Below are positions 8,756-28,150 of a stretch of DNA of 64,000 bases, piece by piece. The notes beneath the pieces were generated by a model. That model saw nothing but the letters and a program-made list of their open reading frames with translations. It ran no database searches and was not told the origin of the DNA. The stretch comes from Planctomycetota bacterium (lineage in GTDB: Bacteria > Planctomycetota > PLA2), in contig JAJFFH010000029.1 in the NCBI GenBank assembly GCA_021776735.1, positions 85,676-149,675 of the forward strand. The letters run 5' to 3'. Position numbers and translations under genes: made by a program. Positions within the stretch are counted from its first letter, which is position 1. Each line of letters begins with the position of its first letter.

Positions 8756-9643
8756 TCATGACCGCGAGCCGCGGCGGGCCAGCAGGATTCCGAACAGGAT
8801 GACGGCTCCGCCGGCGGCCTGCCAAGGGCCAAGCGCTTCGCCCAACAGGAGCCAGCCGAGGAGCGCGACGCAGGCCGGTTGTAACAGCAGCGTGACCGAC
8901 GAAAACGACGCGGGCAGGTGTGCCAGGGCGTACGCAACGAGACCCTGGCCGACGATCTGTGCGACCAGGGCGAGGCCGGCAACCATCGCCCAGGCGTGCG
9001 CGTCCGGCGGCCAGAACGGTTCGGGCGACAGCAAGGCGATGGGCAAGAGGGCGATCGCGGCGACCGCGGAGGTCCACGCCATCAGGCGCGCGACGGGGAC
9101 GCCGGTTTCGCGCGCGCGGGCGATCGACAGGATGTAGGAGCCGTAAAACACCGCGGTCAACAGGCCCAAGAGATCGCCGTCCGTACGCTTTCCTCCGAAT
9201 GTGGCGCTCTCCCCCACGAGCAGAACGGCTCCAACCAACGCCAATATCATGCCGATAGTAAATACCTTGGTGATGCGACGCCGCCAAAGTAGCCAGCCGA
9301 ACAGGGTCACGAACACCGGCGCGAAGTTGGCCAGCAGCGTGGCGTTGGCGACGGTCGTGTAGTGGATCGACCAGTGCCAGACCCCGAGATCCGCGGCGAA
9401 GAACACGCCGGGGAGGATCAGGCGCAGGTTTAGGGGGGAGCGGGGGCCGCCGTTTTTGGAGGCGCGGCGGCGCGCGAGCAGGGCCAGCAGCGGTGCAGCG
9501 AGGACGAGGCGCCAGAACGCGGAGGCGGTTGGCCCGACGCCGGCGGCGATACACCAGCGCACGAAGATCGGTGCGAACGCGATGCCGACGGCGCCGGCGA
9601 GCAGCGCGAGGATCGCCCGGCGTTCGGGTGCCCGCGGTTCCAA
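8756..9643 (-). CDS. EamA/DMT-family membrane transporter
   Basis: The 295-residue protein is almost entirely hydrophobic, with about ten membrane segments arranged as two EamA repeats (residues about 10-140 and 155-290), as in drug/metabolite transporters. Family members export metabolites, amino acids or drugs; the substrate here cannot be told. The loop between the halves contains KRTDGDL, which is encoded by a copy of the dispersed repeat at 9172. It lies head-to-tail with the EF-P-like gene, 10 nt apart. Confidence 0.9.
   Translation of the reverse strand: MEPRAPERRAILALLAGAVGIAFAPIFVRWCIAAGVGPTASAFWRLVLAAPLLALLARRRASKNGGPRSPLNLRLILPGVFFAADLGVWHWSIHYTTVANATLLANFAPVFVTLFGWLLWRRRITKVFTIGMILALVGAVLLVGESATFGGKRTDGDLLGLLTAVFYGSYILSIARARETGVPVARLMAWTSAVAAIALLPIALLSPEPFWPPDAHAWAMVAGLALVAQIVGQGLVAYALAHLPASFSSVTLLLQPACVALLGWLLLGEALGPWQAAGGAVILFGILLARRGSRS
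9172..9184 (+). repeat. Dispersed repeat copy (one mismatch), inside EamA gene
   Basis: GATCGCCGTCCGT followed by ACGCTTTCC differs by one base from the window-wide core CATCGCCGTCCGT. It lies in frame in the interdomain loop of the transporter and encodes KRTDGD on the minus strand. Confidence 0.7.
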
Positions 9644-15596: not shown

Positions 15597-16454
15597 TTAT
15601 CCCGTTCCGATAGATGCGAGGTACGCGCGCAGGTCTGCGCGAAACGTATTCCCGCGGTAGTCATAGATGCGATCGAACTGTCGCACGCGGTCGCCATCGG
15701 AGGCGCGCTCGGCACGGATGTATCGGCGCAGAAGTTTCGGGTCGCGGCGCCGGAGCAGGAAGGACGCGAGCACCAGCGCCTCCGCGTAGTTGCGATGCGC
15801 CTTCGCGCCCACGAACTCGGGGTACTCCTGCAGATCCAACAGCCGCTCGATGTCGAGCCCGCCGCCCATGATCGTGCGGATGAATCCGGCGCGTTCCGGG
15901 CCGATGCCCGGCCGGTTCGGGTCGTACTCGAACGCCTGCGCCAGCCCCTCCATCAGCCACGGGCTGAAGCGCACCTGGTCCCCCGCCGCCGTGCCCATGA
16001 TCCAGTGCACGGTCTCATGGCGCAGCGTGGCCACCGACGTAGCGTGGGCCGGGAGAAAAATCGCGCCGTGGCGCGGGTCGGTGTAGCCGACCATGTTCGC
16101 GAACCGGCCGGGGTCGTGTTGCATCCGGCGGCCGGCGTACGCGCGAACCATGTCCGCCGATGAAAACAGGACGACGACCATGCGGCGCTCGGTCGGCACG
16201 CCGAGCAGGTCGCCCCAGTTTTTCTCAACGCTTTCGCGAAACCGCCGGACCTCGTACGCAGCACCGAAACCGGCTTTCTGCGTCGGCGCCAGCACGATCA
16301 GGTCGTCCTCGTCGACAACGACGTCGATGTTCTTGTCGAACTCGTGGACGCGATCGACCCAGCGCGAGGCCTCGCCCACCCGGCAGGCGCGCAAAGCGAC
16401 AATGATCACCGCAAACGGGACCAGCAGGAAGGCGGCCCGATACAGCGCCGTCAT
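15597..16454 (-). CDS. Membrane-anchored gluzincin metalloprotease-like protein
   Basis: The 285-residue protein starts with a hydrophobic anchor (AAFLLVPFAVIIVALRA) and has HETVH, a HExxH-type zinc site, at about residues 147-151 within TLRHETVHWIMG. LMEGLAQAFEY about 25 residues later supplies the third ligand Glu. This is the peptidase MA-like arrangement seen in many planctomycete exported proteins (family knowledge). The catalytic domain should face the periplasm. Its start overlaps the stop of the rhomboid gene by 4 nt, placing a zinc protease and an intramembrane protease in one operon with hpt. Confidence 0.8.
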   Translation of the reverse strand: MTALYRAAFLLVPFAVIIVALRACRVGEASRWVDRVHEFDKNIDVVVDEDDLIVLAPTQKAGFGAAYEVRRFRESVEKNWGDLLGVPTERRMVVVLFSSADMVRAYAGRRMQHDPGRFANMVGYTDPRHGAIFLPAHATSVATLRHETVHWIMGTAAGDQVRFSPWLMEGLAQAFEYDPNRPGIGPERAGFIRTIMGGGLDIERLLDLQEYPEFVGAKAHRNYAEALVLASFLLRRRDPKLLRRYIRAERASDGDRVRQFDRIYDYRGNTFRADLRAYLASIGTG

Positions 16455-17302
16455 TTGCCCAGGCGGCCCGACGCGCGCTTCAAGAAGCGCTTTTCCTCTT
16501 CGGTCAGCGCGGTCATGCCTTCGCGGTTCACCTTGTCGAGAATCCGATCGACCTCGGCGCGAAGCTCGGACGCCTTCTCCGCATCCTTGTGTTCACGCTT
16601 TCGCTGGCGCTTTTCCGCAAAGTTATCCGCAGCGTGCACGAGGCGTTCGGCGCCGCCGGTCTTGAAGTAGATCCACGCGTAGAGCGCACCGCCAAGGTGC
16701 GCCGAGTGCGCCACGCGGTCGGCGGTCTGCTCGAACATGAGCAGGAAGTCGGCCAGAACGATCACAACGGCAAGAAGCCAAAGCTTGATGCGCAGGACGA
16801 AGAACAGGAGAACCTCGCGGTGCGGGTACCAGAGCGCCGCGAGAACGATGAGTCCGAATTCGTATCCGCTCGCACCAACCAACTGCGCCATGTTGTCGAT
16901 GATCACGGACTCGGTGAGATAAACCGCCACCGAGACGATCTGCGCGGCGAGGCAGAAGAACCAGAAGCGGCGCTGGCCCAGCCGCTCCTCCACCATCGAC
17001 CCAAAGAAGTAGATCCCGACGCAGTTCCAAAGGAGGTGAGAGACTCCGCGTGCATGCAACAGGCCGCTGGTGACGAATTGCCACAGCCAAAACCGGCCGA
17101 GAGCGGACTCCCGCTGGAGCGCAAACACGTCGTCGATCGTGCGTCCCGCGGCGGGCGACATCCCCCGGATCACGGTCACAACGACGTGGATCGTGACCAG
17201 CGTGATGATCAGGATCTTGGTCGCCGGGATCGTCGCAAAAAACGACGGCCGCAGGCCGCCGCTGTCGCCGAAGTCGTGGCGGAAGTAGTCGCGATCACCC
17301 AT
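16451..17302 (-). CDS. Rhomboid-family intramembrane serine protease
   Basis: Beginning MGDRDYFRHDFG, the 283-residue protein has about six membrane helices. The catalytic Ser sits in VGASGYEFGL (GxSx motif) and the partner His in SAHLGGALYAW. SHLLWNCVGIYFFG matches the conserved N-terminal helix pattern. Rhomboids cleave membrane proteins within the bilayer. The C-terminus is a cytoplasmic charged helix (EKRQRKREHKDAEKASELRAEVDRI). The ATG overlaps the hpt stop by 8 nt. Longer ORF starts inside hpt were rejected. Confidence 0.92.
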   Translation of the reverse strand: MGDRDYFRHDFGDSGGLRPSFFATIPATKILIITLVTIHVVVTVIRGMSPAAGRTIDDVFALQRESALGRFWLWQFVTSGLLHARGVSHLLWNCVGIYFFGSMVEERLGQRRFWFFCLAAQIVSVAVYLTESVIIDNMAQLVGASGYEFGLIVLAALWYPHREVLLFFVLRIKLWLLAVVIVLADFLLMFEQTADRVAHSAHLGGALYAWIYFKTGGAERLVHAADNFAEKRQRKREHKDAEKASELRAEVDRILDKVNREGMTALTEEEKRFLKRASGRLGK

Positions 17303-17813
17303 CGAGCACCCCGAGATACGGCAGCGTCCGGTACTCCCCGTCATGGTCGAGCCCGTACCCGACGAGGAAACGGTCCGGCACGGTGAACCCGACGAAGTCG
17401 GCGTCGATCGCGACCTCGCGCCGCGACGGATTGTCGAGCAGGACGCACGACGCGACCTCCTCCGCTCCCCGCCCCCTCAACTCCTCCAGCACGGCAGCCA
17501 GCGTGTGCCCCGTATCGAGAATCGTATCGACCACGACCACGACGCGCCCGACCACATCGGCTTCCTCGAGCGCGCCAAGCTTCACGCGCCCGGTCGACGA
17601 CTGCCCTTCGTACGAACGCGCCCGAACAAACGAGAGCGCCGCGGGCTCCCCGACAACGCGCCCCAAATCGGCCAGAAAGACGGCGGCGCCCTTCAGGATC
17701 CCGAGCAGGGTCACGCGCTCTTTCGGCCAGCGTGCGCGGACGGACTGCCCCAAAAAAAGCACACGGACGGCGATGTCCTCGGCGGAGAAAAGGGCGTCGG
17801 CCACAAGCGCCAT
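17295..17813 (-). CDS. hpt: Hypoxanthine phosphoribosyltransferase
   Basis: The 172-residue protein from MALVADALFS has the PRPP-binding motif VVVVDTILDTGHTL (usually VEDIVDTG), the LLGILKGAAVFLADL region, and the C-terminal FLVGYGLDHDGEYRTLPYLG typical of purine phosphoribosyltransferases. It converts hypoxanthine or guanine plus PRPP to IMP or GMP. The start at 17813 was chosen over the upstream GC-rich extension. Near the N-terminus AEDIAVRVLFLG is encoded by a stretch matching the dispersed repeat exactly, in a position where the family also has an amphipathic helix. Confidence 0.93.
   Translation of the reverse strand: MALVADALFSAEDIAVRVLFLGQSVRARWPKERVTLLGILKGAAVFLADLGRVVGEPAALSFVRARSYEGQSSTGRVKLGALEEADVVGRVVVVVDTILDTGHTLAAVLEELRGRGAEEVASCVLLDNPSRREVAIDADFVGFTVPDRFLVGYGLDHDGEYRTLPYLGVLDG
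17763..17775 (-). repeat. Dispersed repeat match inside hpt
   Basis: ACGGACGGCGATG preceded by AGC at the family spacing. It encodes DIAVR in a conserved helix of hpt, so it may be coincidence rather than insertion. Confidence 0.5.
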
Positions 17814-17898
17814 GGCGGGAGTATACCGCGCCGTTCCCGCCCCCCGGCCCCCCTGATTTTTCCTGCTACACTTCCGCGCTTCAAGAGGAGGCATCTAA

Positions 17899-19632
17899 GT
17901 GAACCGCGCGAGATATCCCGAGCCGAAGCGGCCTGTCCCCAGCGATCTCGACATCGCGCAGGAGGCGGAAATCGATCCGATCCTGGCCGTGGCCGAGCGG
18001 ATCGGGCTTTCGATGGACGACCTGGATCTGCACGGGAAGTACAAGGCCAAGGTCCACCTGGATGTCCGCGAGAGATTCAAGGACCGCCCGCTGGGCAAGT
18101 ACATCGACGTCGCCGCGATCACCCCGACGCCTCTCGGCGAAGGCAAGACCACCACGACGATTGGTCTGGCGCAGGGGCTCGGACGCCTGGGGCACACCGT
18201 GTTCACCTGCATTCGGCAGCCGAGCATGGGCCCGACCTTCGGGATCAAGGGTGGCGCCGCCGGCGGCGGCTACAGCCAGGTCATCCCGATGGACGAGTTC
18301 AACCTCCATCTCACGGGCGACATCCATGCGATCGGGGTCGCGCACAACCTGCTCGGCGCAGCGATCGACAACCACATCCACCACGGCAACAAGCTCGACA
18401 TCAACCCGTTCTCGATCACCTGGCCGCGCGTGGTCGATCTCAACGACCGCGCCCTGCGCGACACCGTGATCGGTCTCGGCGGCAAAATCAACGGCTACCC
18501 GCGGCAAAACGGGTTCGACATCACCGTAGCGTCCGAGGTCATGGCGATTCTGGCCCTCGCGAACGACCTCAGGGATCTGCGCGAACGACTCGGCCGCATC
18601 AGCATCGGCACGAACCGCGCCGGCCAGTCGGTGACCGCCGAGGATCTCAAGGTTGCGGGCGCGATGGCCGCACTGCTGAAGGACGCGCTGATGCCGACGC
18701 TGCTCCAGACCCTGGAGCACACCCCGGCGCTCGTACACGCGGGACCGTTCGCAAATATCGCGCACGGCAACTCGAGCGTGATCGCCGACCAGATCGCGCT
18801 GCGCCTGGGCGACTACGTCGTCACCGAGTCGGGCTTCGGCGCCGACATCGGGATGGAAAAGTTCATGGACATCAAGTGCCGCGCGAGCGGGCTCACGCCC
18901 GACTGCGTGGTGCTGGTCGCCACGATCCGCGCGCTCAAGATGCATGGCGGCGCGGGCAAGGTCGTCGCCGGCAAGCCGCTGCCGCCCGAGCTCACCGAGG
19001 AGAACCTCGCGGCGCTGGAGGAAGGCGCGGCCAACCTCGTCGCCCACATCCGCATCGCGAAGCTCTTCGGCGTTCCGGTTGTCGTCGCCGTGAACCGCTT
19101 CACCAACGACACCGACCGCGAGGTCGAACTGCTCGAGCGCATTTCCATGGAAGCGGGCGCGGAAGCCGCGGTCATGACCAACCACTGGGCCGACGGCGGC
19201 GCGGGTGCGGTCGATCTCGCCAAGGCGGTCGCCGCCGCGTGCGAGCAGGACAAGAACTTCAAGTTCCTCTACGACCTCGACGTGCCGATCAAGGACAAGA
19301 TCGAGATCATCGCCACCAAGGTCTACGGCGCGGACGGCGTCGACTACGACGCGAAGGCCAACAGGCAGATCAAGCTGTACGACGAGCTCGGCTACTCGAA
19401 CCTGCCGATCTGCATGGCCAAGACCCACCTCTCGCTGTCGCACTCCCCGAAGCTGAAAAACGTTCCCAAGAACTGGCGCTTGCCCATCCGCGAAATCCGC
19501 GCGAGCGTGGGCGCGGGCTTTCTCTACCCGCTGTGCGGCACGATGCGCACGATGCCGGGGCTGCCGTCAAAGCCGGCGTTTGAGAACGTGGACATTGATA
19601 CGGCTACAGGGCGGGTGATCGGGCTCTTTTAG
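17899..19632 (+). CDS. fhs: Formate-tetrahydrofolate ligase
   Basis: A GTG start with AGAGGAGG upstream gives a 577-residue protein. Conserved features are PTPLGEGKTTTTIGLAQGL (ATP site), GPTFGIKGGAAGGGYSQV, and the late MAKTHLSLSHSPKLKN and GAGFLYPLCGTMRTMPGLP. The enzyme makes 10-formyl-THF from formate, THF and ATP, feeding purine synthesis or one-carbon assimilation. folD, the next enzyme of the pathway, lies about 6.4 kb downstream on the same strand, separated by an unrelated block of genes. Confidence 0.98.
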   Translation: MNRARYPEPKRPVPSDLDIAQEAEIDPILAVAERIGLSMDDLDLHGKYKAKVHLDVRERFKDRPLGKYIDVAAITPTPLGEGKTTTTIGLAQGLGRLGHTVFTCIRQPSMGPTFGIKGGAAGGGYSQVIPMDEFNLHLTGDIHAIGVAHNLLGAAIDNHIHHGNKLDINPFSITWPRVVDLNDRALRDTVIGLGGKINGYPRQNGFDITVASEVMAILALANDLRDLRERLGRISIGTNRAGQSVTAEDLKVAGAMAALLKDALMPTLLQTLEHTPALVHAGPFANIAHGNSSVIADQIALRLGDYVVTESGFGADIGMEKFMDIKCRASGLTPDCVVLVATIRALKMHGGAGKVVAGKPLPPELTEENLAALEEGAANLVAHIRIAKLFGVPVVVAVNRFTNDTDREVELLERISMEAGAEAAVMTNHWADGGAGAVDLAKAVAAACEQDKNFKFLYDLDVPIKDKIEIIATKVYGADGVDYDAKANRQIKLYDELGYSNLPICMAKTHLSLSHSPKLKNVPKNWRLPIREIRASVGAGFLYPLCGTMRTMPGLPSKPAFENVDIDTATGRVIGLF

Positions 19633-19633
19633 C

Positions 19634-19656
19634 AAAAACCGCCTGCGGCGCTTTTC
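19634..19656. terminator. A/T-flanked hairpin after fhs (shared with 45239)
   Basis: AAAA-C-CGCC, loop TGC, then GGCG-C-TTTT form a symmetric hairpin usable as a terminator in either direction, 2 nt after the fhs stop. The same hairpin in reverse orientation recurs at 45239-45263, so it is also a dispersed element. Confidence 0.6.
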
Positions 19657-19794
19657 GTTAGGTTCCAGCGCCCGGGTGGCCCCGGGCTGTTCGCACGCAC
19701 GGGAGCGGGATCTGACGCGCCCAGTCTTTTTTCCCAAGAGTGCATGCGGTTCCCGTGGTCTTTGTAGGACGCAGAGACACGAAGGAGACACGGC

Positions 19795-20457
19795 ATGGAC
19801 GACGAACAAAGACTCATCGGTCTTCTGGCGCAGCGGCGGGAGCTAACGGACAGCGGAGAGCCAACCGGCGAGATCGACCGGGAGATCATCGCGATTGCGG
19901 ATCCAGTGATTCGACGGGAAGTTCTGCCTCGATTCTCCGCCGTGCGGCGCGGGACCACGCCGGTCCAGACCGGCGGGAACCTCGAGCATAGTTTCCGGCC
20001 CTCGGAGCTGGCCAACGAGTTCTTTGCCCGCGTTCTGCAGCGCGGCCCCGCCCACGATCCGTTCTGGAAGGCCAGCACCTCCAGGGAACTCATCCTTTGG
20101 ACGTCGAAGGTGATCGGCCGGATGATCGTGGATCGCTTCCGAAAAGCGACACAGCGCTCGGAACTCAGCCGGGAGGACGGCCACCTCGCGGAATTCGTAC
20201 GGCGGCGCCAGGCACGGCTTGCCACGGAGTGCCCGGACTTGCTCCTCGTGGATGTCGCCCCCATCCTTAATGAATGGACCGCCAAGGGCGGACGACCCGC
20301 TCAACGGGCACTCGTGTTCGAACTCCGGTTCGTGGGCGGCTACTACGACCGCTCCGAGGCCGCTGCTGTGATGCAGATCCCGCTGGAGTTGCACGACGAA
20401 CTGCTCCGGGAAGCCAAGGAGTACCTTCGGCGGCGCCTCGGAGGAGGCAAGTCGTGA
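19795..20457 (+). CDS. ECF-like sigma factor paired with kinase
   Basis: The 220-residue protein resembles planctomycete ECF-type sigma factors. SELANEFFARVL and SRELILWTSKVIGRMIVDRFRKATQR fit region 2, and QRALVFELRFVGGYYDRSEAAAVMQIPLELHDELLREAKEYLRRRL fits region 4. Both regions are divergent, so the call is moderate. It ends in GGAGGAGGCAA, which serves as ribosome-binding site for the next gene, and overlaps it (GTGA). Sigma factor-Ser/Thr kinase pairs are a known planctomycete arrangement in which the kinase controls the sigma factor; that role is inferred here. Confidence 0.65.
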   Translation: MDDEQRLIGLLAQRRELTDSGEPTGEIDREIIAIADPVIRREVLPRFSAVRRGTTPVQTGGNLEHSFRPSELANEFFARVLQRGPAHDPFWKASTSRELILWTSKVIGRMIVDRFRKATQRSELSREDGHLAEFVRRRQARLATECPDLLLVDVAPILNEWTAKGGRPAQRALVFELRFVGGYYDRSEAAAVMQIPLELHDELLREAKEYLRRRLGGGKS

Positions 20458-23400
20458 GCGACAAATCGACGCCTGAATCGAATCGTCCGGAGCCGATCGG
20501 CCATGGATGGGAGGCGCCGGGCACGAAACTCCACGACGCCACGCTCCGGCGCATCATCGAGGCCGGATATCAGCTCGGCGACGAACTCGCCAATGGAGGA
20601 CAGGCGGTCATCCACGAGGTGACCGATCAACGCACCGGCGGGATCGCGGTCGCCAAGATCTACAAACGCCAAGATCCCGGAACAGTGCGTCGCGCCGACC
20701 ACGAAGCCAAGATTCTCCACTCGACGCGTATGCCCAAAGGCCTGGCCCCCGCCTACGAATTCGTGTCGCTGCCGGAATCGACAGACGACGGCCAGCCGTT
20801 TCTTGTCATGGACAAGGCTTGCGGTCGCCCATTGCACGTTGTGGCAGCCGATCAGCGTGACGACTCGTTGGCTATCGCCACACAGTTTCTTTCCGCCGTC
20901 GCGACGCTTCACCGGATCGACATCCTCCATCGTGATCTCAGCTGCAGCAACGTCTACTGGGACAGCGCCGCCGGCATCACGATTCTGGACTTCGGCTCCG
21001 CGAGCGTCGTGCAGACGGTCCGGTCGGGCCCCGCAGAGCGCCCTGCGTCGAGTCACGCCGTGCAAGGAGGGGCTCGGCTTGCGCCGGACGACGGCCGATA
21101 CGATCTCCGCGGTGCCGCCGCGGTCATTTATCAGATGTTCACGGGACGGCCTGTGGGCAACGATCCCGTCTGCGACCCGAAGGATCAGCGCGCGCATGCT
21201 TGGCTTGCTGCGCTAGCGTCCGCGAACGTCGATTCGGCATTCGCAACCGAAATCGTCAATAGCCTCATTCATCCCGCCCGCGATGTAGAACCGTTGCCCC
21301 TCTCACCGAGTCCCGTGCAGACCCTTTTGGAGACCTCGAGGAACGCTGTTCTGCGCGCGCCAAACATCCTGGCGAAAGCACACCGAGATCGCGCGCCAGT
21401 CACGCGTTGGGCTCAGGAAATCGAATGTCCTCGGACCGTCCTCAAGCTGCTGCGTCTAGACGACACGCGAGTGGTTGCCGGCACAACCGGATCATTGGCC
21501 GCGCTCGATCTCCACACAGGGAAGCTCGTTGAGGAGGCAACAGAGGGCCCTGAAGGCGCAATCATCACACTGGAACGTATCGCCGACGATCAGTTGGTGA
21601 CCGTCTGCGAGAAGGGACTCGTCACGCGGTGGCATCTTCCAACCCTTCGCCGGATCGGCACGCCCGCTTCGCTCCTTGCCACACGCGAACCGGGTCACGG
21701 TTTCGTTCCGGGCAGTGCCATTACCACTGCCCAACTGTCGTCCGACAAGGACTCGATCATCTGCCTTCACGGAGGCCATGTCTGGCTCTGGTGCTTGCGC
21801 GAGGACCGCCGCATGACGGAGCCGTTGTACGTGGGCCGGAAGCACCGGGCGCCGAAGCAATACAAGGATCGAGCGGTCGGAGCGATTGCACCGGTCGGCC
21901 GGGACCTCGTCGCGGTGGCTACGCGCAACCAATACGGACTGTTCGTCGATACGCGGATCGACCTGTGGGATACTCGCACGGGAAAGAGAATTCGCGAAGG
22001 GACGGTCCAGTCCGACTGTGGAATCGGAGCGCTACAGTCCTTTGACGGCTTCCGCAAGCTCTTGTCCTTTGGAGGTCGCATCGAAGTTTGGGATGTCAGC
22101 ACTTGCACACCCCGCGGGGCACCGCTCGCCCCCGACTTTGGGTTCGACTTCGTCTCCGACTCCGCCTCACCGGTGATCAGATGCTACGGGAATCTCGCCG
22201 TCGTCTCCGACGACGGGCGTCGGCTTCTCACAGCGAGCCACGCGAGAACGCTTCAACGATGGGATCTGGAACTTGGTCAGCCACGCGGTCGTCCTGTCTT
22301 CTGCGCCCACGATGTCGAGATCACCGACATGGTCGAGCTCGACGACCGTCACGCGTTGACCGCGTCGCTGGACGGCACGCTGAAGGTCTGGGATCTCGAC
22401 TGCGGTCGATCGCTCAGCGAGCCGAACAAAGTCGGTCACCTCGGCCAACACGACTCCGCGCCGATCGCAGTTGAGGTGCTTGGGCATACGACAAGGGCGG
22501 TCGTGACGCTTTCGCGATATCAGCATCAGATTTGGGATCTGGAGCGCGAGGAACCGCTCGGCAGCCCGGTCACAGCCGCGTGTCCATACGATGGTCACCT
22601 GTCGATACTCGACGAGCGCCAAGCGATCATCGTCGGCAGCCCGCTCGGGATCATGGACATCGGAACAGGTACGCTCAAGAGCACGTCATTTGGTCAGGGA
22701 GTCCCAGTCCTTACAGCAACCGCGTTGAGGAGATCGGGCCGTCTCGCGACCGCCTGCCATCACTATCTGCGGCTGTGGGATATCGACCAGGGGCGTCAGG
22801 TCGGCAAGCCGGTGCACCTCTGCCCGAATGGGCGACCTGGCGGCGAACCCAGGGTCATACTAGCTCTCTCACCGGACGAGACTAGGGTTATCAGCGCATG
22901 CCGCGACCATGTTCGGGTCTGGCGCGCAAACGATCTGGGGCTGATTCATGACCTTAGACTTTCGCCCGTCGGTCCCTGTGACGACTCTCGTCCAATCGGT
23001 GGGCTCGCGACCCTGCCGGACAATCGCCATGTCGTCGTTGCGCACGACGACGGGTCGCTCCGCGTCATCGACTTCGTGCAAGGTGCTCCGGTCGGCGATC
23101 CGATTCTGTTGCCGGAGAGCGCCCGTCCGAGTCAACAATTCTACGGACTACGCGATGTCGTCACATTCGACGATGGTCGCCGGGCCGCGTGCCGCGTCTA
23201 CCTTGACAAGGACATCTACCTGTTCGATCTCGTCGAAGGACGATTCCTTGAGCGCCTGACCGGACATCGGGGGGAGGTGATCGACTTGAAGGCGACATCC
23301 ATCCGTGGCGTGTCGCGATTGATCACGATCTCCAAAGACCGCACCGCCCGCGTCTGGGATGTCAAACCGTGGCTCGCGCCGGAGGGCCAGCTTGCTGTAT

Positions 23401-23558
23401 CTCGGCTGCCAGAGTCTGGAACGGAAGAGAAGCGGATTGCGCGGCTCGACTCGGAACCGGATCAACGCGCGAAGCCTGCGGCGTCCGGAACATCAGACGC
23501 CATCGGGTGTTGGGTTTGGATCATCATCGCGGCCATCGCTTACGCGTTCTTCCGATGA
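20454..23558 (+). CDS. Ser/Thr protein kinase with WD40 repeats and C-terminal anchor
   Basis: The GTG at 20454 overlaps the sigma factor stop and gives 1034 residues. The kinase domain (about 35-330) has IAVAKIYK (ATP-binding Lys), HRDLSCSNVYW (catalytic loop) and ITILDFGSASVV (DFG). Its glycine loop is weak (LANGGQAVIHEV) and no clear APE motif follows DFG. Residues about 350-1000 are WD40 repeats (KVWDLDCGRS, LRLWDIDQGRQVG, ARVWDVKPW). The chain ends in one membrane helix, GCWVWIIIAAIAYAFF. The polarity suggests a cytoplasmic kinase and propeller tethered by a tail anchor. The partner sigma factor is its likely target. Confidence 0.88.
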   Translation: MSDKSTPESNRPEPIGHGWEAPGTKLHDATLRRIIEAGYQLGDELANGGQAVIHEVTDQRTGGIAVAKIYKRQDPGTVRRADHEAKILHSTRMPKGLAPAYEFVSLPESTDDGQPFLVMDKACGRPLHVVAADQRDDSLAIATQFLSAVATLHRIDILHRDLSCSNVYWDSAAGITILDFGSASVVQTVRSGPAERPASSHAVQGGARLAPDDGRYDLRGAAAVIYQMFTGRPVGNDPVCDPKDQRAHAWLAALASANVDSAFATEIVNSLIHPARDVEPLPLSPSPVQTLLETSRNAVLRAPNILAKAHRDRAPVTRWAQEIECPRTVLKLLRLDDTRVVAGTTGSLAALDLHTGKLVEEATEGPEGAIITLERIADDQLVTVCEKGLVTRWHLPTLRRIGTPASLLATREPGHGFVPGSAITTAQLSSDKDSIICLHGGHVWLWCLREDRRMTEPLYVGRKHRAPKQYKDRAVGAIAPVGRDLVAVATRNQYGLFVDTRIDLWDTRTGKRIREGTVQSDCGIGALQSFDGFRKLLSFGGRIEVWDVSTCTPRGAPLAPDFGFDFVSDSASPVIRCYGNLAVVSDDGRRLLTASHARTLQRWDLELGQPRGRPVFCAHDVEITDMVELDDRHALTASLDGTLKVWDLDCGRSLSEPNKVGHLGQHDSAPIAVEVLGHTTRAVVTLSRYQHQIWDLEREEPLGSPVTAACPYDGHLSILDERQAIIVGSPLGIMDIGTGTLKSTSFGQGVPVLTATALRRSGRLATACHHYLRLWDIDQGRQVGKPVHLCPNGRPGGEPRVILALSPDETRVISACRDHVRVWRANDLGLIHDLRLSPVGPCDDSRPIGGLATLPDNRHVVVAHDDGSLRVIDFVQGAPVGDPILLPESARPSQQFYGLRDVVTFDDGRRAACRVYLDKDIYLFDLVEGRFLERLTGHRGEVIDLKATSIRGVSRLITISKDRTARVWDVKPWLAPEGQLAVSRLPESGTEEKRIARLDSEPDQRAKPAASGTSDAIGCWVWIIIAAIAYAFFR

Positions 23559-23600
23559 GACCAAGAGAACAATTCACGCCAGACTCACCCAGGAGAGGAC

Positions 23601-24095
23601 ATGGACAACGAAACAAAGCTGCTGACAGTGAGCCCGTCGATGTTCCGAAACCACCCGCTCCGGTTCAGCCTGATTCTTGCGGCCGTTGTGCTCGGAATCT
23701 ACATCTACCTTGAGCGCGACCAGCTGAACGCCTCCTGGAAGATCGGAATCCCAGAGGAGGCCCTTCCGATCCCCGGCCTCTTGATCGCCGGCCTCGCGGC
23801 GCTCAAGCTCCTGGTTTGGTGGATCCGGTCCGCCACGACGCGCTTAGTCGTGACCACCAAGCAGATCGTTCGGCACGAGGGAATCCTCGCACGGTACATG
23901 GTGCAGATGCGGCACGAAAACGTCCAAAACATCTATGTCAAGCAGACGATTCTCCAGCGACTCATGAACTGCGGAATCGTGGGCTTTTCGAGTTCGGGCC
24001 AAGCCGATGTGGAGATCGTCGTGGAAGGGATCCCGGATCCGAAACGCATCGCCGCAAAGATCCAAGAGATCCTGGATGGCAGGCAGCGCGGATAG
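23601..24095 (+). CDS. Bacterial PH-domain (DUF304/YdbS-like) membrane protein
   Basis: An AGGAGAGG site precedes MDNETKLLTVSPSMF. The 164-residue protein has two membrane segments (FSLILAAVVLGIYIYL and IPGLLIAGLAALKLLVWWI), then the bacterial PH domain motif TTRLVVTTKQIVRHEGILARYMVQMRHENVQNIYVKQTILQRLMNCG, typical of DUF304/YdbS proteins. The function of the family is membrane-associated but undefined. It follows the WD40 kinase by 42 nt on the same strand and may belong to the same module. Confidence 0.88.
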   Translation: MDNETKLLTVSPSMFRNHPLRFSLILAAVVLGIYIYLERDQLNASWKIGIPEEALPIPGLLIAGLAALKLLVWWIRSATTRLVVTTKQIVRHEGILARYMVQMRHENVQNIYVKQTILQRLMNCGIVGFSSSGQADVEIVVEGIPDPKRIAAKIQEILDGRQRG

Positions 24096-24398
24096 CCCGC
24101 GCCCCCCGCACTGCACGATCCCCCACGTCCCTGCTTGATCGCACATGCGGCCGCCTTGTCGAAAGGCCCGAATGCTTCGCGGGGTGAAACCCCGACCCGA
24201 TCGAAGATCTCGTGCCATCGATCGCGCTCGCGACCGGCAACGGCCTGGTCTTGAAACTTGAATTCTCCATCCGAGTTTCCCAAGAACACTGCGCTCGCGC
24301 GTTGACCCTGTGAAGAGCGGGCCGACCGGCCGAACAGTCGCACTTCGTAGCCAGAGGCCGCAGCGGCCACACCACGAAAACAGAAAGCGAGTAGCCCC
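24096..24398. other. 303-nt stretch without a gene
   Basis: No ORF here has a coding look on either strand; the minus-strand ORF crossing it (23844-25010) is a shadow of flanking genes. I see no tRNA, intrinsic terminator or dispersed-repeat copy. Confidence 0.6.
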
Positions 24399-24659
24399 AT
24401 GACCCCCGAACGCTTTGGACAAGTCACCTTTGTTGTCGTCGGCATCCTCGGCATTCCCACCGGTGCCTACTTTGCGGGCAAGGCCGCCGCGGTACTCCTC
24501 GCGCCGTTCTTGGTGTCGCTGGCCCACAATCACCTTGGCTGGACCCTCTCCGCAAACGCGGCGGGGCTCGTCCACTTCGGAATCGGAGCCGCAGTGTTTC
24601 TCTGGATCGTCGCGATGGGCGTGGGGGCTTGCAGCGCGCTCTGGGATTGGCTCTTCTAG
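24399..24659 (+). CDS. Small two-helix membrane protein, unknown
   Basis: The 86-residue ORF MTPERFGQVTFVVV encodes two or three hydrophobic stretches (VTFVVVGILGIPTGAYFAG, AAVLLAPFLVSLA, FGIGAAVFLWIVAMGVGACSA) and little else. I recognise no family. A membrane pattern consistent along its whole length and high third-position GC support a real gene. There is only a weak ribosome-binding sequence. It lies between the PH-domain gene and the ERCC4 nuclease on the same strand. Confidence 0.6.
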   Translation: MTPERFGQVTFVVVGILGIPTGAYFAGKAAAVLLAPFLVSLAHNHLGWTLSANAAGLVHFGIGAAVFLWIVAMGVGACSALWDWLF

Positions 24660-24716
24660 GAAACGGTGACGAGATCCAACGCGCCCCGTGTCGGAGGGCG
24701 CCGGATACTTTGAAGT

Positions 24717-25403
24717 GTGAACTTCGAGCCGGTTCGGATCCTTGTTGATCGGCGCGAGCAGAGCGGTGCGCTCTATCGCGCGCTGACTGTTCGCGATGAT
24801 GTCGCGCTCTCGATTGGGACGCTTGACGCGGGCGACTATCTGGTTGAGGACCGGGTCACGATCGAACGGAAAACCGTCAACGACTTTCGCGGCACGCTGG
24901 GTGATGGCCGCCTCTTTCGGCAAGCGGCGTTCCTCAAGGCGAATGCGCCACGCCCGCTCTTTCTGATCGAGGGGGCCGGACTCTCGCATGTCGCGGCCTC
25001 GATGTATCAAGGCGTTCGCGGCGCGCTCGTTTCATTGTCCGTGATGTGGTATCTCCCGGTCCTGTGGGCTCTCAGCGCCGACGAGGGTGCAGACATCCTC
25101 GTCACCATCGGCCGGCAATGGTTCGCCGACAACCGTGAAAAGTGGCTGGGACCGCCCCGCGCGCCGCGCCGCCAAATGAGCCCGGCCCAGAGCATGCTCT
25201 GCTGCATCGAGGGCCTCGGTCCCCGGGCCGCGAACGATCTGCTCAACCACTTCGGCTCGATGCGAGCCATCGCCCAAGCCACGTCACGCGACCTGGTCCA
25301 GGTCCACGGCATCGGCCCGGTGCTCAGCAAGCGAATTCAAGCCACCCTCGGCTCTCATGGGCTCATTCCTCCTACTAATCAAGATCCGCAAAGCGGATCT
25401 TGA
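24717..25403 (+). CDS. ERCC4/XPF-type nuclease with helix-hairpin-helix
   Basis: A GTG start gives 228 residues. The ERCC4 nuclease core (about 5-135) has ILVDRREQSG, DAGDYLVEDRVTIERKTVNDF (the V/I-ERK-x3-D active site of XPF/Mus81/Hef nucleases) and FLIEG. A tandem helix-hairpin-helix DNA-binding part follows (CCIEGLGPRAANDLLNHFGSMRAIAQA and LVQVHGIGPVLSKRIQATL). Such enzymes cut branched DNA near junctions. In bacteria this stand-alone form is sporadic, which suggests transfer or a phage link (inference). A 12-bp hairpin overlaps its stop codon. Confidence 0.9.
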   Translation: MNFEPVRILVDRREQSGALYRALTVRDDVALSIGTLDAGDYLVEDRVTIERKTVNDFRGTLGDGRLFRQAAFLKANAPRPLFLIEGAGLSHVAASMYQGVRGALVSLSVMWYLPVLWALSADEGADILVTIGRQWFADNREKWLGPPRAPRRQMSPAQSMLCCIEGLGPRAANDLLNHFGSMRAIAQATSRDLVQVHGIGPVLSKRIQATLGSHGLIPPTNQDPQSGS

Positions 25404-25404
25404 T
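25378..25404. terminator. Strong hairpin overlapping ERCC4 stop codon
   Basis: ATCAAGATCCGC pairs perfectly with GCGGATCTTGAT around an AAA loop, a 12-bp stem containing the gene's TGA. No T-tract follows; instead the dispersed repeat begins 3 nt later. It may end or stabilise the transcript. Confidence 0.5.
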
Positions 25405-25407
25405 AGA

Positions 25408-25420
25408 CATCGCCGTCCGT
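25408..25420 (+). repeat. Dispersed repeat copy, intergenic
   Basis: Exact CATCGCCGTCCGT followed by ACGCTTCCCC, immediately after the 25378 hairpin. It lies between the ERCC4 and cNMP-domain genes. Confidence 0.85.
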
Positions 25421-25510
25421 ACGCTTCCCCAAAACACGCGCCCCACGTAGATCGTGCGCCTTCGGCACACCGCGTGCATTCCGCCGCAGGTCTTACGGAA
25501 AAGGTGCAAA

Positions 25511-25969
25511 ATGGTTCCCAGCGAGACTCTGTCCGAGATTCCCTTTTTTGGTCGGTTGAAGGCCAACGAGCGGTCGCTGCTGTCGCCGCTCTCAACGCGC
25601 CGGCGCTACCGTGCCGGCGATGTCATCTTCGGCCTCGGCGAGGAGCCGCGCGCGTTGCGAGTGCTCGTCTCCGGACTCGTGTCGTTTCGCGACGAGGAGT
25701 CCGCGTTCGGCGCCGCCCGGGACGGCGACATCTTCGGCATCGGCTCCATCGTCGGGCAGGACGCGATCTATCCGCACAGCGCCGTCGCACTCGAGGACTG
25801 CGAAGTCATCGAAGTCGACGCGGCGCGTCTGCTCACGCTCTGCGAGGCCATGCCGGTGCTCGGCGTCCGCGTCCTGCATCGGTTCGCAACCGTCTTGTCG
25901 CAGCGTCTATCCGCCGCGCGCCAGCAGTTGCGCAGCCGTCTCGCCCCCGGCACGATCACCCACGGTTAA
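25511..25969 (+). CDS. Stand-alone cyclic nucleotide-binding-domain protein
   Basis: The 152-residue protein from MVPSETLSEIPFF is a cNMP-binding fold alone: RYRAGDVIFGLGEEPRALRVLVSGLVSF, DGDIFGIGSIVG and DCEVIEVDAARLLTLCEAMP. It lacks the C-terminal helix-turn-helix of Crp/Fnr regulators, so it would act through partners rather than by binding DNA. The Arg that contacts the cyclic phosphate in Crp is not evident (IVGQDAIYPHSAV), so ligand binding is doubtful. The start follows AAGGTG. It sits between the ERCC4 nuclease and folD. Confidence 0.82.
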   Translation: MVPSETLSEIPFFGRLKANERSLLSPLSTRRRYRAGDVIFGLGEEPRALRVLVSGLVSFRDEESAFGAARDGDIFGIGSIVGQDAIYPHSAVALEDCEVIEVDAARLLTLCEAMPVLGVRVLHRFATVLSQRLSAARQQLRSRLAPGTITHG

Positions 25970-26023
25970 GCGGCCGGCCCGCGCCCCCTCAAGAGATACA
26001 TCGGAGGTCCCCCGACACAGCAA

Positions 26024-26036
26024 ACGGACGGCGATG
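26024..26036 (-). repeat. Dispersed repeat copy upstream of folD
   Basis: Exact reverse core ACGGACGGCGATG with the upstream CAGCAA and downstream TCC conserved. It lies 45 nt before folD. Confidence 0.85.
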
Positions 26037-26080
26037 TCCGTGCAGCGTCGGGCTTCGCTCATCGTGTAGCATGTCGCCCT

Positions 26081-26971
26081 ATGGCAACTCTCGCTACTCT
26101 CATCGATGGCAAGGCGATCGCGGCGGACGTCCGCGCCGAGGTCAAGAAGGGCGTCGCGGCGCTCAAGGCCGAGCACGGCATTACGGTCGGGCTCGCAACC
26201 GTCTTGGTGGGCGACGATCCCGCATCGCACAAGTACGTGTCGATGAAGCGCAAGGCGTGCGCGGAAGCCGGGATCGAGAGTTTTCACCACCAACTCGGCG
26301 CGGATGCCACGCAGGATCAGGTGCTCGGACTCGTGCGCGACCTCGGCGCCGACGACCGCGTCCACGGCATCCTCGTACAGCTTCCGCTGCCGAAGCAGGT
26401 CGATGAAAAGACGGTCCTCGACGCCGTGCCGCTCAGCAAGGACGTCGATGGATTTCACCCGCTCAACATCGGTGCGCTCGCGATGAAGGGTCGCGACCCC
26501 GAGTTCCGCCCCTGCACGCCGCACGGCTGCATCGAGCTGCTCAAGCGATCGGGCACCGAGATCAGCGGCGCCAACGCCGTCGTTCTCGGCCGCTCCAACA
26601 TCGTCGGCATGCCGGTCGCGCTGATGCTGGTCGAGCAGAACGCGACCGTCACGATCTGCCACTCGCGCACCAAAAACACCCCGGACCTGATCCGCGAGGC
26701 CGACATTCTCATTGCCGCGATCGGTCGCGCGCACTTCGTGAAGGGCGACTGGATCAAGCAAGGCGCCACCGTCATTGATGTCGGCACGAACGTCATCGAC
26801 GACCCGTCGCGCAAGAGCGGCAAGCGCTTGGTCGGCGATGTCGACTTCGACGCGGCCAAGGAACGCGCGGGCAAGATCACCCCGGTTCCCGGCGGCGTCG
26901 GCCCGATGACGATCGCGATGCTGCTGCAGAACACGCTGCGGGCGGCGAAAAAGGGCGTGCCTTCCGGTTAG
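26081..26971 (+). CDS. folD: Methylenetetrahydrofolate dehydrogenase/cyclohydrolase
   Basis: The 296-residue protein has the FolD signatures: KYVSMKRKACAEAGI (catalytic Lys region), GILVQLPLPKQVDE, HPLNIGALAMKG, VVLGRSNIVGMPVALML (nucleotide fold) and ITPVPGGVGPMTIAMLLQNT. It interconverts 5,10-methylene-, methenyl- and 10-formyl-THF, linking directly to fhs upstream. The last codons and TAG stop lie inside the first hairpin of the repeat array that follows, so the repeat appears to have supplied the current end of the gene. Confidence 0.97.
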   Translation: MATLATLIDGKAIAADVRAEVKKGVAALKAEHGITVGLATVLVGDDPASHKYVSMKRKACAEAGIESFHHQLGADATQDQVLGLVRDLGADDRVHGILVQLPLPKQVDEKTVLDAVPLSKDVDGFHPLNIGALAMKGRDPEFRPCTPHGCIELLKRSGTEISGANAVVLGRSNIVGMPVALMLVEQNATVTICHSRTKNTPDLIREADILIAAIGRAHFVKGDWIKQGATVIDVGTNVIDDPSRKSGKRLVGDVDFDAAKERAGKITPVPGGVGPMTIAMLLQNTLRAAKKGVPSG

Positions 26972-27097
26972 CGCAGGATTCGCTAACCGGTGAATCGGGG
27001 TCGGACGGGCCCAGTGTCTCTTGGCTTCAACGGCTGACGCCGTTGAGAGCCTTGCGGGCCGGTGGCCCTTCCGGTTGGCGGAGGAACCGCTAACCGG
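26964..27097. repeat. REP-like hairpin array 1 (B-A-B)
   Basis: Three hairpins in a row. The first is CCGGTTAGCG/CGCTAACCGG overlapping the folD stop. The second is the TCAACGGC/GCCGTTGA type with loop TGAC (27027-27046). The third is CCGGTTGGCGG/CCGCTAACCGG with loop AGGAA (27071-27097). A short GGGCC/GGCCC hairpin lies between the last two. The unit recurs at 33579 and 36317. Confidence 0.85.
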
Positions 27098-27175
27098 TGA
27101 AACAGGTCGGGCGGGGCGGTGAACTATCGGTTGAAGAACAAACGGGCCTTCTGGCATTCTTTGTTCGGAGGGACC

Positions 27176-28150
27176 ATGCGAACGCTCCTGATCGTGATCG
27201 CCCTTTTCGCCGGCCAGACGCGGGCCGGCGAAACCGACAACCTGCTTGCCAACGGTGGGTTCGAGGACAAGCTCCAGGGCTGGACCGTACAGGCCAGGGT
27301 CGCGACGTACACCGCGACGAAAAAAGGCAAGGTCAAGGGCAAGTGGTGCCTGCATGCGCGCAAGCCGCGGGCGTTCTCGCATGGAGAAGCGCTGTTCGCC
27401 GACTTTGAGATTCCCAGATCGAGGCGCAACGGGCACGTCGTGGTGAGCCTGCGCGCGAAAGGCAAAAAGCTCGGGAACGCCTGGCTTCGCTGCTACCTGT
27501 ACGACGCTGCCGGCCAGACGTTGAACCGCGACGTCGATCTGCCACAGCTTCGCGGGACGTTCAAGTGGACCCGGCACGAAAAACGCTTTGCGGTGCCGAA
27601 ATCCGCTGTGCGAGGACGGGTTCTGCTCAACCTCTACATGGGCGAGGAGCTTTGGCTGGACGACATTAGGGTCGTCCACAAACCGGGCGCAGGCGAGCAG
27701 ACATCGTCGGGGATCAGAAACGGTGGATTCGAAGAGAAACTGAAGGGATGGATCACGCTACCGTCCACCGCAGGACGGGCGCGCGCGAGCGTCGATCGCA
27801 CTGTCAAGAACGCGGGCAAGGGCGCCCTGCGCCTTCGGCGCCGGCACCAACGGTTGTTCCCCCAAGCCGGCGTCAGCCAATCCACGCCCACGGGCGGCGT
27901 GACCAAGCTCGTCTTGCGCTACCAGGTTCGCGCGAGCGACGGCGCGCGCGCCGTGGTGACGCTTCTGGCGTTTGGTGGACGCGGCGACCTGGTGGCCTCG
28001 GCGCACCGAGAAACATCGCCGTCCGTCGGCTTTGTTCAAGGGGAACTCCCCCTCACGCTCCCCGCGTGGGCCGAAACCGTGACCGTGTCCCTGGAAATCG
28101 CGGGGTCGGGCAGCGTCTGGTTCGACGACGTCACGCTGGAGGAGAAGTAA
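27176..28150 (+). CDS. Secreted protein with two carbohydrate-binding-like modules
   Basis: The ATG at 27176 follows CGGAGGG. The 324-residue protein has a signal peptide (MRTLLIVIALFAGQTRA) and two modules of about 150 residues, each opening NGGFE(D/E)KLxGW and ending in WLDDIRV or WFDDVTL. This is the CBM_4_9-like beta-sandwich pattern used to bind polysaccharide. No catalytic domain is present. The second module contains RETSPSVGF, encoded by a dispersed-repeat copy. The stop overlaps the next start (TAATG), so it is coupled to a secreted esterase, suggesting a substrate-binding partner. Confidence 0.8.
   Translation: MRTLLIVIALFAGQTRAGETDNLLANGGFEDKLQGWTVQARVATYTATKKGKVKGKWCLHARKPRAFSHGEALFADFEIPRSRRNGHVVVSLRAKGKKLGNAWLRCYLYDAAGQTLNRDVDLPQLRGTFKWTRHEKRFAVPKSAVRGRVLLNLYMGEELWLDDIRVVHKPGAGEQTSSGIRNGGFEEKLKGWITLPSTAGRARASVDRTVKNAGKGALRLRRRHQRLFPQAGVSQSTPTGGVTKLVLRYQVRASDGARAVVTLLAFGGRGDLVASAHRETSPSVGFVQGELPLTLPAWAETVTVSLEIAGSGSVWFDDVTLEEK
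28014..28026 (+). repeat. Dispersed repeat copy inside CBM-like gene
   Basis: Exact CATCGCCGTCCGT preceded by GAAA and followed by CGGCTTTG. Here it is read in the frame giving TSPSV, not IAVR, so different copies are used in different frames. Confidence 0.8.

Follow-up and report, generated by a model that had tools for sequence, protein, structure and literature searches.

In a 64,000-nucleotide stretch of the genome of a Planctomycetota bacterium (contig JAJFFH010000029.1, positions 85,676 to 149,675; hereafter the window), the folate genes fhs and folD share an orientation and lie 6.4 kb apart, as the original prediction, made from the sequence of the window, had described. The six genes between them also proved to be as named: a sigma factor resembling the extracytoplasmic function (ECF) type, a WD40 kinase, a bPH_2 protein, a small membrane protein, a nuclease with ERCC4 and HhH domains, and a cyclic nucleotide monophosphate (cNMP)-binding domain protein (Table 1). 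Here we examine how this block came to separate fhs from folD, and a short repeat at its right edge that is dispersed throughout the genome and is a candidate DNA uptake signal sequence (USS).

Table 1. Genes, repeats and limits of the acquired block around the fhs-folD interval (window coordinates)
Feature	Position	Strand	Remarks
Motif copy within hpt gene	17758..17777	-	encodes DIAVR
fhs, formate-tetrahydrofolate ligase	17899..19632	+	left flank of insertion; PF01268 E=8.6e-261
Acquired block, ~5.8 kb	19633..25405	+	right joint within 25404-25510; absent in relatives, codon usage atypical
ECF-type sigma factor, diverged	19795..20457	+	TIGR02999 E=0.001 (NCBIfam, weak)
Ser/Thr protein kinase, WD40 propeller and C-terminal hydrophobic segment	20454..23558	+	Pkinase and WD40 above Pfam cut-offs
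bPH_2 (bacterial PH) domain protein	23601..24095	+	PF03703 E=5.4e-12
Small membrane protein, no family	24399..24659	+	no Pfam match
Stand-alone XPF/Hef-type nuclease, ERCC4 and HhH	24717..25403	+	PF02732, PF12826
Perfect 10-bp hairpin, CAAGATCCGC-AAA-GCGGATCTTG	25380..25402		spans ERCC4 stop codon
Motif copy, GACATCGCCGTCCGTACGCT	25406..25425	+	right edge of block
cNMP-binding domain protein	25511..25969	+	PF00027; native neighbour of fhs and folD
Second motif copy	26019..26038	-	inverted relative to 25406
folD	26081..26971	+	right flank of insertion; PF02882, PF00763

For the synteny comparison, fhs and folD were located in 99 relatives, where the fhs orthologues are 76-81% identical. Where the two were found near each other, they are separated by only 52-167 bp in five genomes related at the order or phylum level (G011, G016, G085, G013 and G066), by 736 bp in G048 and, within the family, by 642, 693 and 1,048 bp in three genomes, compared with 6.4 kb in the window. 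They thus lie side by side or nearly so in the clade, and the genes from the sigma factor to the nuclease (19795-25403) lie between them in none of the relatives compared; neither the same gene order in a distant relative nor a clade in which fhs and folD never adjoin was seen. The left side of the site is kept in the family, with a rhomboid-like gene and the gene at 15597-16454, joined in G003 by hpt. A homologue of the cNMP gene (40-46% identity) adjoins fhs in G001, G002 and G004; it lies between fhs and folD in the first two and 3' of fhs on the truncated contig of G004, and in G001 and G004 no more than about 20 nt separate its start from the fhs stop codon. In G003 (L062, 9195-10240) the place of the cNMP gene is taken by an antisense gene that reads as epimerase-like from its translation, and the interval is thus labile within the family.

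Codon usage was assessed against a set of 315 genes from this genome. The cNMP gene, fhs and folD are typical; the kinase gene has both the lowest codon score and the lowest GC content at third codon positions of the whole set, and the sigma, ERCC4 and small membrane genes fall in the lowest 10%. No orthologue of the sigma factor was found among the 99 relatives, and none of the sigma factor, the kinase or the ERCC4 protein in the family. Given the ancestral fhs-(cNMP)-folD synteny, the lack of family orthologues and the atypical codon usage, we conclude that the block from just 3' of the fhs stop codon to just 3' of the ERCC4 stop codon is acquired. The predicted six-gene island therefore stands from the sigma factor to the nuclease. 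It was drawn too far on the right, since the cNMP gene, with a conserved homologue beside fhs and typical codon usage, lies outside it. The alternative that the block is ancient at this site, with losses in the relatives, draws some encouragement from the lability of the interval, yet it would require many losses, since five genomes at a greater distance have fhs and folD only 52-167 bp from each other, and it leaves the foreign codon usage of the block to be explained; we regard it as barely credible.

The first two genes of the block overlap, the start of the kinase gene preceding the stop of the sigma gene. No Pfam family matches the sigma factor, but its sequence can be aligned with unambiguous Sigma70_ECF members of G015 and G019. 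Its single relative among 392 genomes of the phylum (31% identity, in the distantly related G163) is followed by a kinase similar to that of the block (27%, E=8e-14), so that the pair recurs there; elsewhere the block kinase, in whose translation HRDLSCSN and DFG motifs are visible, shows only generic similarity. Pairs of an ECF sigma factor and a Ser/Thr kinase (ECF-STK pairs) have been described in planctomycetes and elsewhere (PMC8999054), and the simplest reading of the two overlapping genes is a signalling pair of this known kind. By analogy with the characterised pairs, the sigma factor would be phosphorylated by the kinase in response to a signal that the kinase senses, and a small regulon would then be switched on; activation by phosphorylation is a step that we infer solely from PMC8999054.

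The neighbours of the sigma-kinase pair need not act with it, and the PH-domain protein, the small membrane protein and the XPF-type nuclease would be passengers or separate acquisitions. The archaeal proteins XPF (2bgw) and Hef (1j22) align with the ERCC4 protein along its whole length, and its translation contains the catalytic motif GDx(n)ERKx3D, as GDYLVEDRVTIERKTVND, together with (HhH)2, the features expected of an XPF/ERCC4 nuclease. Relatives with 31-42% identity are scattered in the phylum and others are found on 153 plasmid records, mostly from Pseudomonas; among phages they occur just in two distant archaeal viruses (four records). The original prediction had suggested that kinase and nuclease could form a stress, DNA-damage or conflict module. 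The block genes are indeed consecutive and on one strand, and PADLOC returned weak kinase-domain matches such as PD-T4-6. These matches are generic, however, and there were none for the nuclease. In eight ERCC4 loci of relatives no homologue of the sigma factor, the PH protein or the small membrane protein was found nearby and only one weak kinase hit was obtained, and the sigma-kinase pair of G163 has no ERCC4 gene in the short stretch examined. With neither a specific defence-protein match nor a conserved linkage to the sigma factor, kinase or defence genes, it is improbable that kinase and nuclease act together in one coherent module against phages or DNA damage. The nearest ERCC4 relative (G009) adjoins genes that read from their translations as those of ribosomal proteins and an elongation factor. 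The PH-domain gene and that of the small membrane protein are separated by ~300 bp (24097-24398) with no recognisable gene or RNA family, which may be a gene remnant. An Rfam search of 17000-28000 gave no match, and scans for sigma-70 promoters and terminators returned hits at or below chance level.

Both edges of the block had been thought to be marked by repeats. The dispersed hairpin proposed for the left edge is matched, imperfectly, at one other place in the window; 464 kb contain 11 occurrences of its 11-nt core, too few for a repeat family, and we rejected it as such. The repeat copies on the right are real; they are present far beyond chance and genome-wide and are not particular to the block. 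Copies of GACATCGCCGTCCGTNNGCT are spread over the window: with no more than two mismatches allowed in the 14-nt core, they lie at 9170+, 12356+, 15556+, 17777-, 25406+, 26038-, 28012+, 29393-, 31408+, 33554-, 36206+, 37504+, 37561-, 45267+, 57186+ and 61544-, several of them directly 3' of a hairpin.

The form and placement of this motif were worked out from 464 kb of the one 71-contig assembly, using our own codon-based and approximate gene calls. The motif is asymmetric and ~20 nt long (RARACATCGCCGTCCGTNYGCTTY), with the consensus RARACATCGCCGTCCGTNYGCTTYNYY over 120 copies, in which TCGCCG is invariant, and no conservation extends beyond ~25 nt. Allowing up to one mismatch of a 13-mer, GACATCGCCGTCCGTNYGCTT has 1,725 near-copies in the genome, 869 forward and 856 reverse, against 7 and 4 (11 in all) for the reversed control. 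Exact 19-nt matches number 313; the reversed pattern has none, and the motif itself has none in 20 relatives, four of them from the same family, although exact-pattern scans of this kind would miss variant motifs. In GTDB r220, with the records of this genome excluded, the strict 21-nt form matched once, in an acidobacterium, which we take as chance. A collection of viral contigs gave ten single matches to the motif, about the chance expectation by our own estimate. A blind k-mer search of 400 kb ranked the motif well ahead of every other dispersed word, with 79 copies of ATCGCCGTCCGT where 0.5 were expected. The same search of sampled stretches of G002, G003, G066, G015, G006, G039, G018 and G049 returned no comparable word; enriched words in G066, G015 and G075 proved to be local tandem repeats.

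Orientation along the genome is balanced and slightly more alternating than random (runs test z=+2.3). Of the 120 copies, 65 lie in genes and 55 in the ~10% of the DNA that is non-coding, mostly between convergent or tandem genes. Fifty-three of the 65 coding copies occupy a single frame phase, 17 in the sense direction (encoding xIAVR) and 36 antisense (TDGDV). Close pairs are about twice as frequent as expected (8 versus 4); seven of the eight are inverted, and one inverted pair forms a nearly perfect palindrome, ACGGACGGCGATATCGCCGTCCGT.

The uniformity of the copies, together with their occurrence in inverted pairs or 3' of hairpins, might suggest a short mobile element spread by insertion, similar to repetitive extragenic palindromic (REP) sequences or miniature inverted-repeat transposable elements (MITEs). 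For 22 coding copies, 26 of 32 alignments with orthologues are ungapped across the motif, with differing residues present in equal number; the copy within hpt is one example, G003 having TIADR at the same position and no gap. The motif was thus written into genes by substitution rather than insertion, and the same kind of alignment test showed that the USSs of Haemophilus influenzae are not insertions (PMC1626085). With more than half of the copies in genes and no conserved sequence beyond ~25 nt, spread by insertion is very unlikely.

The likeliest mechanism for such a motif is that of an uptake signal, a function that its sequence and distribution suggest. A receptor of a competence pilus would prefer DNA carrying the motif, the fragments taken up would recombine, and the motif would accumulate across the genome. 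The genome encodes ComEC, a PilT-family ATPase above the cut-off, PilB-like ATPases and a cluster of proteins with pilin-like N-termini. In G039, of the same phylum, we also observed a DUF1559 pilin-like protein of the type typical of planctomycetes. All the sequence-level hallmarks of USSs that we tested (copy number, consensus, substitution origin, strand balance, placement and competence genes) are present. As preferential uptake is a functional hallmark and these belong to the sequence level, we call the motif uptake-signal-like rather than a member of the USSs or of the DNA uptake sequences (DUSs) of Neisseriaceae.

A chromosome-maintenance or epigenetic site, either recognised by a protein of the nucleoid or of chromosome segregation or similar to the highly iterated palindrome (HIP1) of cyanobacteria, could also be abundant and lie within genes, being kept by selection unrelated to uptake; HIP1 has been linked to DNA methyltransferases (PMC4390886). 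The motif is, however, no palindrome and lacks strand polarity, it is confined to one genome of the family, and perfect copies of the 12-mer core ATCGCCGTCCGT are commoner than those with a single mismatch (108 versus 45). We consider a maintenance site possible but doubtful.

Several observations weigh against the interpretation that we favour. Motif density is one per ~3-4 kb (about 0.26-0.3 per kb), compared with ~1 per kb in known cases (PMC1626085); the PilB-like proteins fall just short of the curated score threshold for PilB; and the organism is known as a single 71-contig assembly, with no sibling species among the relatives. The block contains no copies of the motif, which is not significant given that copies lie 3.1 kb apart on average (~16% by chance), and motif density is not lower in codon-atypical genes. 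For the latter reason, an absence of the motif from foreign DNA was not retained as an argument for the block.

In the two species of genus g2 examined (G001 and G004; for example L104:9538, L105:4489 and L063:13227) a different dispersed motif, CCCCGGAGCCCCNNNNNATC, has 117 and 101 exact copies and is absent from the other relatives searched but for one copy in G017. It is weaker than the motif of the window and has no clear frame bias. In the genome of the window itself there is another dispersed repeat, a longer one around GCAGTGTCTTTTGGCTTCAACGGCT (G000:C20; for example L084:13726 and 13839, L088:3633-3855 and L087:1046), which is partly tandem with ~110-bp spacing.

Taken together, these data make it rather probable that the locus reflects both an acquired sigma-kinase block and a motif with the function of a USS. 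The block itself, as a tidy case of acquisition whose boundary is known, has little further significance. According to PMC12616744 (2025), only Pasteurellaceae and Neisseriaceae are known to favour their own DNA in uptake by means of short genomic motifs. Whether the present motif marks a third independent origin of DNA uptake signals, outside Proteobacteria and probably in Planctomycetota, with unrelated genus-specific motifs (ACATCGCCGTCCGTNYGCT here and CCCCGGAGCCCCNNNNNATC in g2) that the remaining genera of the family lack, we judge to be evenly balanced. Were it so, gain and turnover of uptake specificity could be observed within one family, active natural transformation would be implied in an uncultured lineage, and a third example from so remote a phylum would allow comparison of why specificity evolves, what the receptor requires and how fast motifs turn over.

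Among known systems, the sigma-kinase pair resembles the phosphorylation-type ECF-STK pairs (ECF43, ECF59, ECF61, ECF62 and ECF217), several groups of which were named from planctomycetes (PMC8999054), in that an ECF sigma factor adjoins a Ser/Thr kinase with no recognised anti-sigma gene alongside; it differs in its strongly diverged sigma factor, not assigned to an ECF group, and in the WD40 propeller of its kinase. The nuclease shares with the archaeal short XPF/Hef nucleases an equal length and an ERCC4 domain with GDx(n)ERKx3D as well as HhH, but it has no helicase part and its relatives in bacteria are accessory and plasmid-borne. HIP1 is likewise a very abundant dispersed short motif within genes, although it is an 8-nt palindrome and the motif here is asymmetric and ~20 nt long. 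The motif further resembles the Pasteurellaceae USS (AAGTGCGGT) and the Neisseriaceae DUS (GCCGTCTGAA), which also have more than 1,000 copies, a strong asymmetric core and balanced strands, lie both within and between genes with reverse copies exceeding forward ones in reading frames, form inverted intergenic pairs and arise by substitution (PMC1626085, PMC2346458). From these the present candidate motif differs in its unrelated sequence, its longer conserved extent, its density of about one-third and its occurrence in another phylum.

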